DNA of 64,000 nt from Gammaproteobacteria bacterium (GTDB lineage: Bacteria > Pseudomonadota > Gammaproteobacteria > Steroidobacterales > Steroidobacteraceae), in the NCBI GenBank assembly GCA_016874295.1, contig VGUH01000016.1, forward strand, positions 1-64,000. Direction: 5' to 3'. Position numbers and translations under genes: made by a program. Shown here one piece after another: positions 6,036-33,218 of the stretch. Position 1 is the stretch's first letter. Each line of letters starts with the position of its first letter. The notes under the pieces are model-generated. The model did no database searches. It was not told the DNA's origin and was given only the letters and a program-made list of their open reading frames with translations.

Positions 6036-6104
6036 CGGTGCCGGGTCGCACTTATCGCACTTATTGCAAGGGGCAATAAGTGCGATAAGTGCGACCCGGC
6101 ACCG
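6036..6104. repeat. perfect 32-bp inverted repeat, copy 1
   Basis: Arms 6036-6067 and 6073-6104 are exactly complementary over 32 bp with a 5-base loop. Each arm contains GTGCCGGGTCGCACTTAT and a repeated CACTTAT module. It begins one base after the tagH remnant's stop and faces tRNA-Ser on the other strand, so it sits between converging units. A close relative lies at 31295-31375. It could be a bidirectional terminator and/or a REP-type mobile palindrome. Confidence 0.9.
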
Positions 6105-29064: not shown

Positions 29065-30270
29065 ATGGACCAGGCCCTGCTCGACCGGCTCGCAGCCCAG
29101 ACCGCGGAACTCACGCGCACGGGTCTCTACAAGCGCGAGCGCGTGATCGCCTCGCCGCAGCAACCCGTGGTCCGGCTGGAGGACGGCCGCGAGGTGATCA
29201 ACCTCTGCGCCAACAATTACCTCGGCCTCGCCGACCATCCGGCAGTGGTTGCCGCCGCGCACGCGGCGCTCGACCGTCACGGCTACGGCATGGCCTCGGT
29301 GCGCTTCATCTGCGGCACGCAGACCGTGCACCGCGAGCTGGAGCGGCGTTTGTCGGTCTTCCTCGGCACCGAGGACACGATCCTCTATTCCTCCTGCTTC
29401 GACGCCAACGGCGGCCTGTTCGAAACGCTGACCGACGAGCAGGACGCGATCATCTCCGACGCGCTCAACCACGCGAGCATCATCGACGGCATCCGGCTCT
29501 CGAAGGCGAAACGCCTGCGCTACGACAACGCGGACCTCGGCCAGCTCGAGGCCCGGCTGGTCGAGGCGAAGGACGCCCGTACCCGCCTGATCGTGACCGA
29601 CGGCGTGTTTTCGATGGGCGGCGTGATCGCGCCGCTCGCGGGGATCTGCGAGCTCGCCGCGCGGCATCGCGCGACGGTCATCGTCGACGACTCGCACGCG
29701 ACCGGGTTCATGGGCCGAAGCGGGCGCGGCACGCACGAGCATTGCGGCGTCATGGGGCGCGTCGACATCCTGACCGGCACGCTCGGCAAGGCGCTCGGCG
29801 GCGCGAGCGGCGGCTACGTGTCCGGCCCGGCAGCGGTCGTCGGCTGGCTGCGCCAGCGCTCGCGGCCTTACCTGTTCTCCAACACTGTCGCGCCGGTCGT
29901 CGCGGCCACGACGCTCGCGGTTCTCGACCTGCTCTAGTCGGACCCGGTGCCGCGCCGCCGGCTCGCCGAGAACGCCGCCTGGTTCCGCGCGCGTCTCGCG
30001 GCCAAGGGATTCGACCTCGTGCCCGGCGAGCATCCCATCGTTCCGGTCATGCTGGGCGATGCCGCACTCGCGGTGCGCATGGCGGACCGCCTGCTGGAGC
30101 TCGGCGTGTACGCGGTCGGATTCTCGTATCCCGTGGTCCCGATGGGCAAGGCGCGGATCCGCACGCAGATGTGCGCCGGCCACACGCGCGCCATGCTGGA
30201 AAAGGCCGCGACGGCATTCGCACAGGCCGGGCGCGAGCTCGGCGTCATCGGCACACAGGGGATCGCATGA
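29065..30270 (+). pseudogene. kbl: glycine C-acetyltransferase Kbl, interrupted by in-frame TAG
   Basis: Kbl (2-amino-3-ketobutyrate CoA ligase) converts the Tdh product to glycine and acetyl-CoA. The reading frame of 401 codons matches E. coli Kbl (398) from end to end, but codon 291 (29935-29937) is TAG. Before it: [27 protein letters not shown] and the PLP Lys in [14 protein letters not shown] near 244. After it, in the same frame: [48 protein letters not shown] to TAG is the simplest lesion (VLDLL-E-SDPVP). A GTG at 29947 could in principle start the C-terminal fragment. Otherwise nothing is degraded, so the lesion is recent, is a base error, or is read through. It overlaps tdh by 4 bases. 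Confidence 0.85.
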
Positions 30271-31295
30271 AGGCATTGATCAAGTCGCGCCGGGAGCCCG
30301 GCATCTGGCTCGGCGAGCTGGCGAAGCCGGAGCCCGGTCCGAACGACGTGCTGATCCGCATGCGCAAGACCGCGATCTGCGGCACGGACATCCACATCTG
30401 GCAGTGGGATGCCTGGGCCGAGCGCACCATTCCGGTCCCGATGCAGGTCGGCCACGAGTACTGCGGCGAGATCGTCGCGCTCGGCAGCGAAGTGCGCGGG
30501 CTCTCGGTCGGCGATTGCGTTTCCGGCGAGGGTCACATTACCTGCGGTCATTGCCGCAACTGCCGCGCCGGTCGCCGGCACCTGTGTCGCAACACGCTAG
30601 GAGTCGGCGTCAACCGGCCCGGTTGCTTCGCGGAATACATGGTCCTGCCGGCCGCGAACGTGTTCCGCCTGCCGGCCGGCATCAGCGACGAGATCGGCTC
30701 CATCCTCGACCCGCTCGGCAATGCCACACACGCCGCTTTGTCGTTCAACACGGTGGGGGAGGACGTGCTGATCACGGGCGCGGGACCGATCGGCATCATG
30801 GCGGTCGCGATCGCCCGCTTCATCGGTGCGCGCCATGTCGTCATCACCGACGTCAACGACTACCGGCTCGACCTCGCGAGGCGCATGGGCGCGACCCGCG
30901 CGCTCAACGTGCGGAACGAGAAAATCGATGACGCGATGCACGAGCTCGGCATGGAAGAAGGCTTCGACGTCGGCCTCGAGATGTCCGGGAACGCCTCGGC
31001 GTTCCGCGACATGCTGCGCATCATGCACCACGGCGGCAGCATCGCGATGCTCGGCATCCCGCCCGGCGAGGTCGCGATCGACTGGAACCAGGTGATCTTC
31101 AAGGGCCTGGTCATCAAGGGCATCTACGGTCGCGAGATGTTCGAGACCTGGTACAAGATGGCCGCGATGCTGCAGAGCGGGCTCGACGTGAGCGGCGTGA
31201 TCACGCACCGCTTCCCGGCCTCCGACTACGCGCGCGCCTTCGAGACCATGGGCGGCGGCCAGTCGGGTAAGGTCATCCTCGACTGGGCGGCGTAG
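30267..31295 (+). CDS. tdh: L-threonine 3-dehydrogenase Tdh
   Basis: This 342-residue zinc alcohol-dehydrogenase-family enzyme oxidises threonine to 2-amino-3-ketobutyrate. Catalytic zinc ligands are in ICGTDIHIW and [12 protein letters not shown]. The structural zinc site is [15 protein letters not shown] near 96-110. The NAD-binding motif is [21 protein letters not shown] 30267 overlaps the kbl stop (ATGA), so expression is coupled to translation of the interrupted kbl. The stop TAG touches the palindrome at 31295. Confidence 0.96.
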
Positions 31296-31375
31296 AACTG
31301 ATGGTGCCGGGTCGCACTTATCGTACTTATTGCAACGCAATAAGTACGATAAGTGCGACCCGGCACCATCAGTTC
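31295..31375. repeat. perfect 39-bp inverted repeat, copy 2
   Basis: Arms 31295-31333 and 31337-31375 are exactly complementary over 39 bp around a 3-base loop. The arms share GGTGCCGGGTCGCACTTATCG-type sequence with copy 1 (6036-6104), differing inside by one base that is compensated on the other arm (CGCACTT vs CGTACTT). It spans precisely the space between the stop codons of tdh (plus) and sppA (minus), even including parts of both. Confidence 0.92.
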
Positions 31376-33218
31376 ACTCCACGCGGCACGAACAGAGATA
31401 CACCGGCCGCCCCGCGGCGGCGAGTCCAAGGAGCGCCCGCGCGCGCGCGAACGTATCGCCGAGCCACGGCAGGTTCACCCGGCGGGGCGCGACGGCCTCG
31501 ACCAGCCAGGCGGCGCCACTGCGCAGGCGCCTGACGAGCGCTTCCTGCCACGAGAGTTCCTGCTCCATCCAGCGCACGTCGTAGCCTTCCTCGAGACCGG
31601 CGAGCTCGGCCGCCTTCGCGATCGCCTCGTCGATGCCCCCGAGCTCATCCACGAGACCGGCCGCCTGCGCGTCCGCACCCGTCCAGACGCGGCCCTCGGC
31701 GATGCTTTCGATCTCCTCGGCCCGGCGCTTGCGCGCCTCGGCGACGCGGCCGACGAAATAGCGATAGTGATGCTCGACCGATGCCTGCAGGATCGCCCGC
31801 GCATCGGGCCCGATGTCGCGCGACAAATCGAGCTGGCCCGCCAGGCGCGTGGTGCCGAAGCCGTCGCTCGTGACGCCGACCTTGCCGAGCGTGTCCTGGA
31901 AGGTCGGGATGACCGCGAAGACCCCGATCGAGCCGGTGATGGTCGTCGGCGCCGCGTAGATCCGGTCGGCATCCATCGCGATGTAGTAGCCGCCCGACGC
32001 CGCGACCGTACTCATCGTGGCGACCACGGGCTTGCCCGCAGCCTTCAGCGCCGCCACCTCGCGGCGGATCACCTCGGAGGCCATGATGCTGCCGCCCGGG
32101 CTGTCGATGCGCAGCACGACCGCCGCGAGGTCGTCGTCCGTGCGCGCCTCGCGCAGCACTTCGGCGAGCGAGTCGCCGCCCACGAGTCCCGGCCCGCGCC
32201 GCCCGTCCAAGATCTCGCCCGAAGCGACGATGACCCCGACGGCCTGGTCGCCGAACTCGCGCAGTTCGCGCTGCGCGCGAACGTACGGCAGGTACCCGCG
32301 CCAGTCGACCGCCGAATAGCCGTTCTCGTCATCTTCGTCGTCCCGGCCGACGGTCGCGGCGACGATCTCCTCGAACTCGTGACGGGTCTTGAGTGCGTCC
32401 ACGAGCCCGCGCGCCAGCGCGTATTGCGCCAGGTCCCCGCGGGTCGCGCGCACGCCCTCGGCCGCCTCGTCGGCATACGCCTGGATCAGGCCTGGCTCCA
32501 GCTTGCGCGCCGCGCCCACGTCGGCCTTGTACGCGTCCCAGAGCGCGCCGAGCCAGACACCGGCGTTCTCGCGGTCCTCGTCCGACATGTCGGTCCGAGT
32601 CCACTCGTCCGGCGCCGACTTGTGGCTGCCCGCCTTGAAGACGTTGAGATCCACCGCAAGCTTGTCGAGCGTGCCGCGGAAGTAGGTGCGGAAGTAGCCG
32701 TAGCCCTCGAGCAGGACATAGCCCATCGGGTCGAGGTACACCTCGTCCGCCTGCGCGGCGATGAAGTACTGGCGTTGGGAGAAGGACTCGCCGTAGGCGT
32801 AGACCTTCTTGCCGCTCTCCCGGAACCAGCGGATCGACTGCGCGAGGTCCTGCAGCATCGGCAGGCCCGCGCCGGCGAGGTCGTCGAGGTCGAGCACGAG
32901 CGCCTGGATACGGTCGTCGTCGCGCGCCTCGTCGATCACGTCCACGAGGTCACGCAGGCGCGTCTCACCGCGCAGCTCGCCGGTCGCCCCCGCCAGGGCG
33001 CGCTCGAGCGGGTCGCCCGAGAGTTCCTCGACCAGGTAACCGTCGGGAGACAGCACGAGCGCCGCACGCCTGGGCACGAGAGGCAGCTCCGTCTGCCCAG
33101 CGATCAGGAGCAATCCGAACAGGACCAGCAGCAGGATAAGGTGCAGGACCTTGCGCAGGCCGTCCAGCGCGACCCAGACGCCCTTCAGGAAGGACCAGAG
33201 CGCGTGCAGCACCGGCAT
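31374..33218 (-). CDS. sppA: signal peptide peptidase SppA, 67-kDa type
   Basis: Inner-membrane S49 serine peptidase of 614 residues that digests cleaved signal peptides. It has an N-terminal transmembrane helix (VLHLILLLVLFGLLLIAG). The first S49 repeat has the catalytic Lys in AGSHKSAPDEW near 196. The second has the nucleophile Ser in VAASGGYYIAMDADRIY and TITGSIGVFAVIP. It starts 5 bases after rplS, so it is the distal gene of the rpsP-rimM-trmD-rplS unit. Confidence 0.95.
   Translation of the reverse strand: MPVLHALWSFLKGVWVALDGLRKVLHLILLLVLFGLLLIAGQTELPLVPRRAALVLSPDGYLVEELSGDPLERALAGATGELRGETRLRDLVDVIDEARDDDRIQALVLDLDDLAGAGLPMLQDLAQSIRWFRESGKKVYAYGESFSQRQYFIAAQADEVYLDPMGYVLLEGYGYFRTYFRGTLDKLAVDLNVFKAGSHKSAPDEWTRTDMSDEDRENAGVWLGALWDAYKADVGAARKLEPGLIQAYADEAAEGVRATRGDLAQYALARGLVDALKTRHEFEEIVAATVGRDDEDDENGYSAVDWRGYLPYVRAQRELREFGDQAVGVIVASGEILDGRRGPGLVGGDSLAEVLREARTDDDLAAVVLRIDSPGGSIMASEVIRREVAALKAAGKPVVATMSTVAASGGYYIAMDADRIYAAPTTITGSIGVFAVIPTFQDTLGKVGVTSDGFGTTRLAGQLDLSRDIGPDARAILQASVEHHYRYFVGRVAEARKRRAEEIESIAEGRVWTGADAQAAGLVDELGGIDEAIAKAAELAGLEEGYDVRWMEQELSWQEALVRRLRSGAAWLVEAVAPRRVNLPWLGDTFARARALLGLAAAGRPVYLCSCRVE

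Follow-up and report, generated by a model that had tools for sequence, protein, structure and literature searches.

The REPs of E. coli consist of a short stem with a bulge. The wider question behind the present analysis is how REP-like palindromes are spread and kept nearly perfect. Families of TIR repeats have been described together with the TIRYTs/TIRtrons (Di Nocera et al. 2013, PMC3733652), and the TnpA-Y1 proteins of subclass 2.1 are long and possess a C-terminal helix-turn-helix-like part (Quentin et al. 2018, PMC6006769). In related strains, syntenic RAYTs have been found to be flanked by different classes of REPs, a phenomenon named orthoswitch (Nunvar et al. 2013, PMC3686654). The genus analyzed here represents a natural experiment, in which a conserved head is found together with inner arms particular to each species, orthologous slots and a single transposase, syntenic in two species. 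Overwriting of resident copies can therefore be weighed directly against their re-insertion.

In the window, i.e. the whole stretch of 64,000 nucleotides under analysis, the gap between the convergent genes tdh and sppA is entirely occupied by a perfect inverted repeat of 81 nt (31295-31375). According to a repeat search, a 39-nt left arm (31295..31333, plus strand) is separated by an AAC loop of 3 nt (31334..31336) from a right arm (31337..31375, minus strand) that is its exact reverse complement, the arms being 100% complementary. The 39-bp palindrome reported in a previous, sequence-only reading of this DNA is thus real, although strictly 39 bp is the length of each arm and 81 nt that of the whole. 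When folded as RNA, this stretch reaches -78.8 kcal/mol (z -14.9), and none of 200 shuffled sequences was equally good. The gene tdh (30267..31295, plus strand) encodes an L-threonine 3-dehydrogenase (NF003808, 1e-175; TIGR00692) and sppA (31374..33218, minus strand) a signal peptide peptidase (TIGR00705, 2e-151; PF01343), and the ends of the arms overlap their stop codons, by one base in the TAG of tdh (31293-31295) and by two bases in the TGA of sppA (31376-31374, minus strand). The inner 31 nt of the arm are those of a repeat family and read GGTGCCGGG, TCGCACTTA, TCGTACTTA and TTGC. The 12-nt head GGTGCCGGGTCG, also present in two sister species, G003 and G001, is located at 31303..31314 on the plus strand and at 31356..31367 on the opposite one, and the two 9-nt units TCGCACTTA and TCGTACTTA of the left arm (31312..31329, plus strand) have their mirror in the right arm (31341..31358, minus strand). 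The outer 8 nt, GAACTGAT, are a copy-specific extension outside the family arm, yet mirrored within the copy: on the left (31295..31302, plus strand) they overlap the tdh stop by its final base and on the right (31368..31375, minus strand) the sppA stop by its final two. Another copy in the window (copy 1, 6037..6103) displays 31-nt arms and a 5-nt loop. In comparison with copy 1, the tdh/sppA palindrome bears T for C at 31324 (plus strand), which is arm position 22, and A for G at 31346 (plus strand), and the two bases pair, in agreement with the compensated base change first noticed from the sequence.

The whole source genome (G000; 2.37 Mb, 46 contigs) was searched for the family, which gave 86 matches with both strands counted, and a 17-nt pattern of the head, with 3 mismatches allowed at most, found 90 matches, against 17 for the reversed control. 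In stretches around the head matches (about 207 kb, plus the window), on which the copy count rests, the family amounts to 38 paired copies, including one with a transposase gene inside, and 6 unpaired heads. The dispersed family considered likely from the two copies in the window is thus found genome-wide. Among copies with unbroken arms the loop measures from 1 to 36 nt, the transposase copy excepted, and the inner extensions of the stem vary from copy to copy, yet pair inside each copy. Arm position 22 (left/right) is C/C in 22 copies, T/T in 12, C/T in 3 and C/G in a single copy, which has an indel; position 13 is C/C in 33, T/T in 4 and T/C in 1, and position 16 is T/T in 36 and A/A in 2. 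Positions 13 and 22 are equivalent to each other within the two 9-nt units. When the 36 indel-free copies are taken together, the arms of the same copy differ at 9 positions in total, compared to a mean of 37 and a minimum of 26 when the right arms are shuffled (none of 2000 shuffles was as low); with all 38 copies, the two indel copies included, the figures are 26 and 54. Checked genome-wide, as had been recommended, the arms therefore vary in concert. The cause had been sought in selection for the fold or in the copying of one arm onto the other. The second of these may act at the edges, but both miss a better-fitting cause, the copying of whole palindromes by a mobile-element system, given that arms match within each species but are unrelated between species at a shared junction. 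The palindrome is a member of a family of small, putatively mobile repeats, and the compensated change reflects the copying and turnover of whole palindromes of that family; selection on an RNA fold is unnecessary to explain it. A caution follows for "compensatory" changes in genome repeats, which do not prove a functional RNA.

In the genome of G000 a single match to Y1_Tnp is found (PF01797, 1.3e-12), corresponding to a frame of 295 aa on the minus strand (C12:10570-11457, L020). The gene sits between two arms of the family (C12:10546-10574 and C12:11579-11607), perfect over 31 nt, with a span of about 1062-1066 nt. Since the only Y1/RAYT gene of the genome lies between arms of the same repeat, the palindrome can be assigned to a TIR-type RAYT (TIRYT/TIRtron). 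We hypothesize, with a probability of roughly 0.87, that it is a non-autonomous REPIN-like repeat, composed of two RAYT/TIRYT TIRs back to back and moved by the single Y1 transposase of the genome, the safest reading being a TIRYT's TIR in dimeric form, resembling a REPIN. The protein scores 80.6 bits against the REP-associated tyrosine transposase model NF047646, barely above the cut-off of 80, and its alignment keeps the HUH motifs N-H-x-H and Y-x-H-L-N-P of the RAYT branch of Y1 transposases. Residues 229-254 show a weak likeness to Bac_DnaA_C (E 0.0093, 16.4 bits, below the 31.5 cut-off). A resemblance of the 9-nt unit to the DnaA box was dropped, the match by eye being inexact. In the AlphaFold model of the G003 orthologue (mean pLDDT 85.8) residues 222-287 are mostly helices, and the best PDB match of this model is 4er8, a REP-associated tyrosine transposase with a bound REP hairpin (E 5.9e-7), followed by the transposases of IS608 and ISDra2. 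The gene is syntenic in G000 and G003, with the same two neighbors, and a search of the G001 assembly (75% complete) gave no Y1_Tnp gene. The identity between the two syntenic transposases (L020:10570-11457 in G000, C68 in G003) is 50%, against 73%, 84% and 70% for the three nearest genes, a divergence that may reflect fast evolution or replacement in place.

A scan of contigs with an alignment of eight such transposases yielded 75 loci, mainly from MAGs and many of them titled Gammaproteobacteria or Steroidobacteraceae, 44 of which (L172-L214, L217) were scanned for flanking inverted repeats. At 41 of these 44 an inverted repeat of at least 12 nt is present, as a raw count with no shuffled control, and at 24 of 44, likewise with no shuffled control, GGTGCC begins within the first 7 arm positions; the remaining arms carry GTGCCGG, GGTACCGG or GGGGTCAGG, and some are unlike. 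Of 30 typed arms, which include L188 and L189, one identical arm, 24 contain a tandem unit that is significant when compared to shuffles (p<=0.05), and the other 6 have no significant inner repeat. The period of the unit is 8 or 9 in 22 arms and 6 in the 2 others. The related transposases mostly have a GGTRCCGG-type end, followed by units of 8-9 nt. In G030, a genome of another genus, there are two similar transposase loci (L123 and L137), each flank of which is a full TGGTAACAATCGTGCC/GGCACGATTGTTACCA palindrome, and one palindrome of this type is borne by the tdh/sppA junction (L090).

Regarding the position relative to genes, which in G000 were called with our own simple gene finder (the one used for G003 was seeded from the G000 calls), 20 of the 38 copies are located at convergent junctions, 17 at tandem and 1 at a divergent junction. 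None is wholly inside a called gene, and called genes overlap 4 of the 38, by 17-45 nt. In the same stretches, junctions with an element number 18/16/1 (convergent/tandem/divergent) and those without 19/158/35, and the preference for gene ends and convergent pairs predicted from the two window copies is in fact pronounced (Fisher p 2e-8). A gene 3' end is faced by 57 of the 76 element edges. Since REPs of two species show the same gene-end preference, most of the convergent ones being less than 20 bp from both 3' ends (Di Nocera et al., PMC3733652), placement at gene ends is ordinary for the wider kind.

To the sequence-only reading the element looked like a dual terminator, and a transcription terminator acting in both directions could have evolved, or been recruited, where convergent genes end. 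The very stable stem (-78.8 kcal/mol) and the excess of elements at convergent junctions are in line with such a role, as is the proximity of stops to the arms, 47 of 76 edges being 1-42 nt from a gene 3' end. Nevertheless, no terminator-like T-tract site was detected at the locus in a scan of 30800-31900, and T-runs follow 2 of the 76 element ends, results that bear on terminators of the intrinsic type. Furthermore, at C8:51286 and C17:22640 an ordinary, ready intrinsic terminator stands immediately before the element, in five of the six other genus members searched the stop-to-stop gap at tdh/sppA is just 1, 2, 18, 1 and 1 nt, and the sequence of the palindrome follows the transposase family, not the genes. 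The terminator is thus very improbable, and this part of the earlier interpretation is not supported. Likewise, the intrinsic terminator (GC stem, then T-run) was rejected as a definition of the family, based on the terminator scan and the T-run count. A long stem at the stop codon may protect the mRNA or slow translation.

G003 and G001, which belong to the same genus, harbor families of their own with the identical 12-nt head GGTGCCGGGTCG and other inner arms, of which each species has more than one variant. Six of the 14 own-family copies of G003, the transposase copy included, share a G000 slot on both flanks and a seventh does so on one flank; of the 16 copies of G001, 2 share a G000 slot on both flanks and 2 on one. 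With rates extrapolated from the 63 junctions of the window, 6/14 shared slots would arise by chance with a probability of 2e-4 if the convergent rate is applied, and of 5e-8 if the rate for all junctions is used; minus the transposase copy (5/13), these values become 1e-3 and 1e-6, respectively. Six shared slots, five of them shared on both flanks and one (C15:32298) on one flank, with the transposase slot excluded, were compared in sequence. The head is 99% identical. For the inner arms, the identity is 86% among different slots of one species, 29% if the slot is shared but the species differ, and 30% if neither is shared. This comparison suggests that a slot persists longer than the sequence occupying it.

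In G003, nine of the G000 slots were examined together with the neighbors on either side (C8:51286, C14:47080, C15:7962, C15:50286, C16:31303, C17:22640, C17:50468, C24:9369 and C17:53733), and all nine hold a palindrome, which belongs to the family of G003 itself in four and to an unrelated GGGGAC type in five, tdh/sppA included. At C15:7962 the called end of the neighboring gene runs 42 nt into the element, and the G003 slot is filled. In G030 the tdh/sppA junction holds a third palindrome type, the arm of its own transposase. A GGGGAC palindrome is also nested in the loop of the GGTGCC-headed family, in G000 at C15:11957 and in G001 at L289, a possible intermediate. The sequence AAGGGGACGCG, found 22 times in G000 and 0-4 times in the five other genus members, is present in 161 copies in G003 (L291-L330), where it constitutes a second, much larger palindrome family. 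Other genus members lack a palindrome at the junctions read: tdh/sppA is empty in 5/5 read, C17:53733 in 4/4 (G006 left out) and C24:9369 in 3/3 (G002 and G005 left out).

Because inner-arm identity is 29% at the same slot compared to 86% within species, 9/9 slots are filled and GGGGAC palindromes are nested in loops of the GGTGCC-headed family, we tentatively propose, at slightly short of an even chance, that gene-end slots are inherited and kept filled, the resident palindromes being overwritten in place by the transposase of each species via the conserved 12-nt head. Unrelated families could take a slot over, perhaps by inserting in the old loop. An alternative that is less likely than not is that slots are common to species merely since permissible junctions are few and independent insertions hit the same ones. 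In its favor, under one rule for slots and background, by which a junction is filled if it contains a GGTGCC or GGGGAC palindrome, 30/99 G003 convergent junctions are already filled with arms of at least 11 nt, and 28/99 with arms of at least 12 nt. However, C8:51286, C14:47080 and C17:22640 came from stretches selected for a G003 copy, and the other six slots, all convergent and not chosen for a palindrome, are filled in 6/6 at the 11-nt threshold (chance about 8e-4) and in 5/6 at the 12-nt threshold, where tdh/sppA of G003 fails because its unbroken arm measures 11 nt. The G003 sample leans to contigs bearing own-family copies, and in the G003 stretches not picked for such copies 0/10 convergent junctions are filled, which also speaks against independent insertion. 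The same applies to the 6/14 G003 copies whose slots agree with those of G000 on either side (at the convergent rate, p 2e-4, or 1e-3 if the transposase copy is left out), and to the two shared slots that are tandem, a class of junction filled in 19/483. Shared slots with switched arms thus suggest renewal in place, independent re-insertion at favored junctions being possible.

At the edges of the G000 elements, the base beside the head is C or T in 69/76 and A is found at -2 in 57/76. The flank word depends on the species: TRAY in G000, ACTT in G001 (15/32) and, in G003, mostly A followed by T or C, with A at -2 in 19/28 edges. In 9/38 G000 copies the two flanks mirror each other over at least 5 nt beyond the shared head, compared to 0.7 expected, and the mirrored outer flank extends for 8 nt at the tdh/sppA copy and for 18 nt at C8:51286. 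Together with inner stem extensions that are copy-specific yet paired, this mirroring would fit arms that match because, in each copy separately, one arm is corrected locally from the other by hairpin template switching, instead of by whole-copy descent. The mirroring, however, weakens past -8 and is restricted to 2/16 copies in G001 and 0/14 in G003, and arm-to-arm correction alone would not give one inner arm to all copies of a species, which makes it an unlikely explanation. Short tandem duplications of at least 9 nt, whose units mostly comprise the flank and the first head bases, were observed at 25/76 G000 edges against 3/194 gene 3' ends (p 1e-12), for example at C5:121154-121270, C24:21419-21514 and C25:27674-27746. 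They occur at 7/32 edges in G001 (L290:1533-1590) and at 1/28 in G003, where 4.9% of random windows contain one; being at background in G003, they cannot be generalized to the whole kind, and slippage at the foot of the hairpin is one guess as to their origin. By eye, the flank tetranucleotide might pair with the arm in three species, in the manner of the guide and target of IS608, but the offsets differ and no such pairing is proposed.

If the palindrome is indeed a TIR dimer moved by the Y1 transposase, the HUH/tyrosine domain would cut hairpins of single-stranded DNA where the head meets the TRAY flank and would paste the copies, and the 8-9-nt units may be recognized by the C-terminal region. 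Insertions just past stops, above all between convergent genes, would be the least harmful and would survive. New copies would descend whole from the current source copy, so that the two arms would change together, and might take the place of older palindromes in a slot or fill that slot anew.

Among the described systems, the one reported here resembles the TIRYTs/TIRtrons in having a RAYT-like Y1 transposase with long terminal inverted repeats, and not GTAG REPs, and in that TIRs are dispersed, often as dimers (PMC3733652), here in 38 paired copies with one around the gene. It differs from them in that the GGGGWSAS motif of some TIRs is absent, the head being GGTGCCGGGTCG, of a GGTRCCGG type in many relatives, and in the repeated units of 8-9 nt, unmentioned in the text of PMC3733652 and PMC6006769, the TIR figure aside. 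The extension typical of subclass 2.1 (Bac_DnaA_C, HTH_23 or HTH_28-like) is perhaps also present, with a sub-cut-off match to Bac_DnaA_C (E 0.0093). REPINs likewise combine inverted repeats folding as one hairpin, a cognate RAYT, an extragenic position and compensatory changes in the spacer (Bertels and Rainey 2011, PMC3116915), which is mirrored here by an inverted doublet with one cognate RAYT; in contrast, REPINs are built of REPs with a GTAG foot, whereas the arms described here are nearly perfect over 31-39 nt. An assignment to GTAG-REPs/REPINs was in fact rejected, given that the flank at the foot is mostly TRAY in G000 and ACTT in G001. The palindromes of the E. coli REP/BIME system are also mostly intergenic and associated with TnpA-REP (PMC6006769), but the flank found here is not GTAG. 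In the orthoswitch, old REPs stay and decay, as far as the text of PMC3686654 describes it, whereas here orthologous slots bear new species-specific arms. The text of the open literature searched, figures and supplements aside, gave no account of slot sharing with switched arms, of a GGTRCCGG head or of 8-9-nt units, and GGTGCC as a search term has 0 matches in PMC3733652, the other literature having been searched by topic and not by motif. Judged against that text, the kind of palindrome is itself known, and what appears to be new is the combination in G003 and G001 of the same 12-nt head with other inner arms, in palindromes that stand at some of the orthologous junctions.
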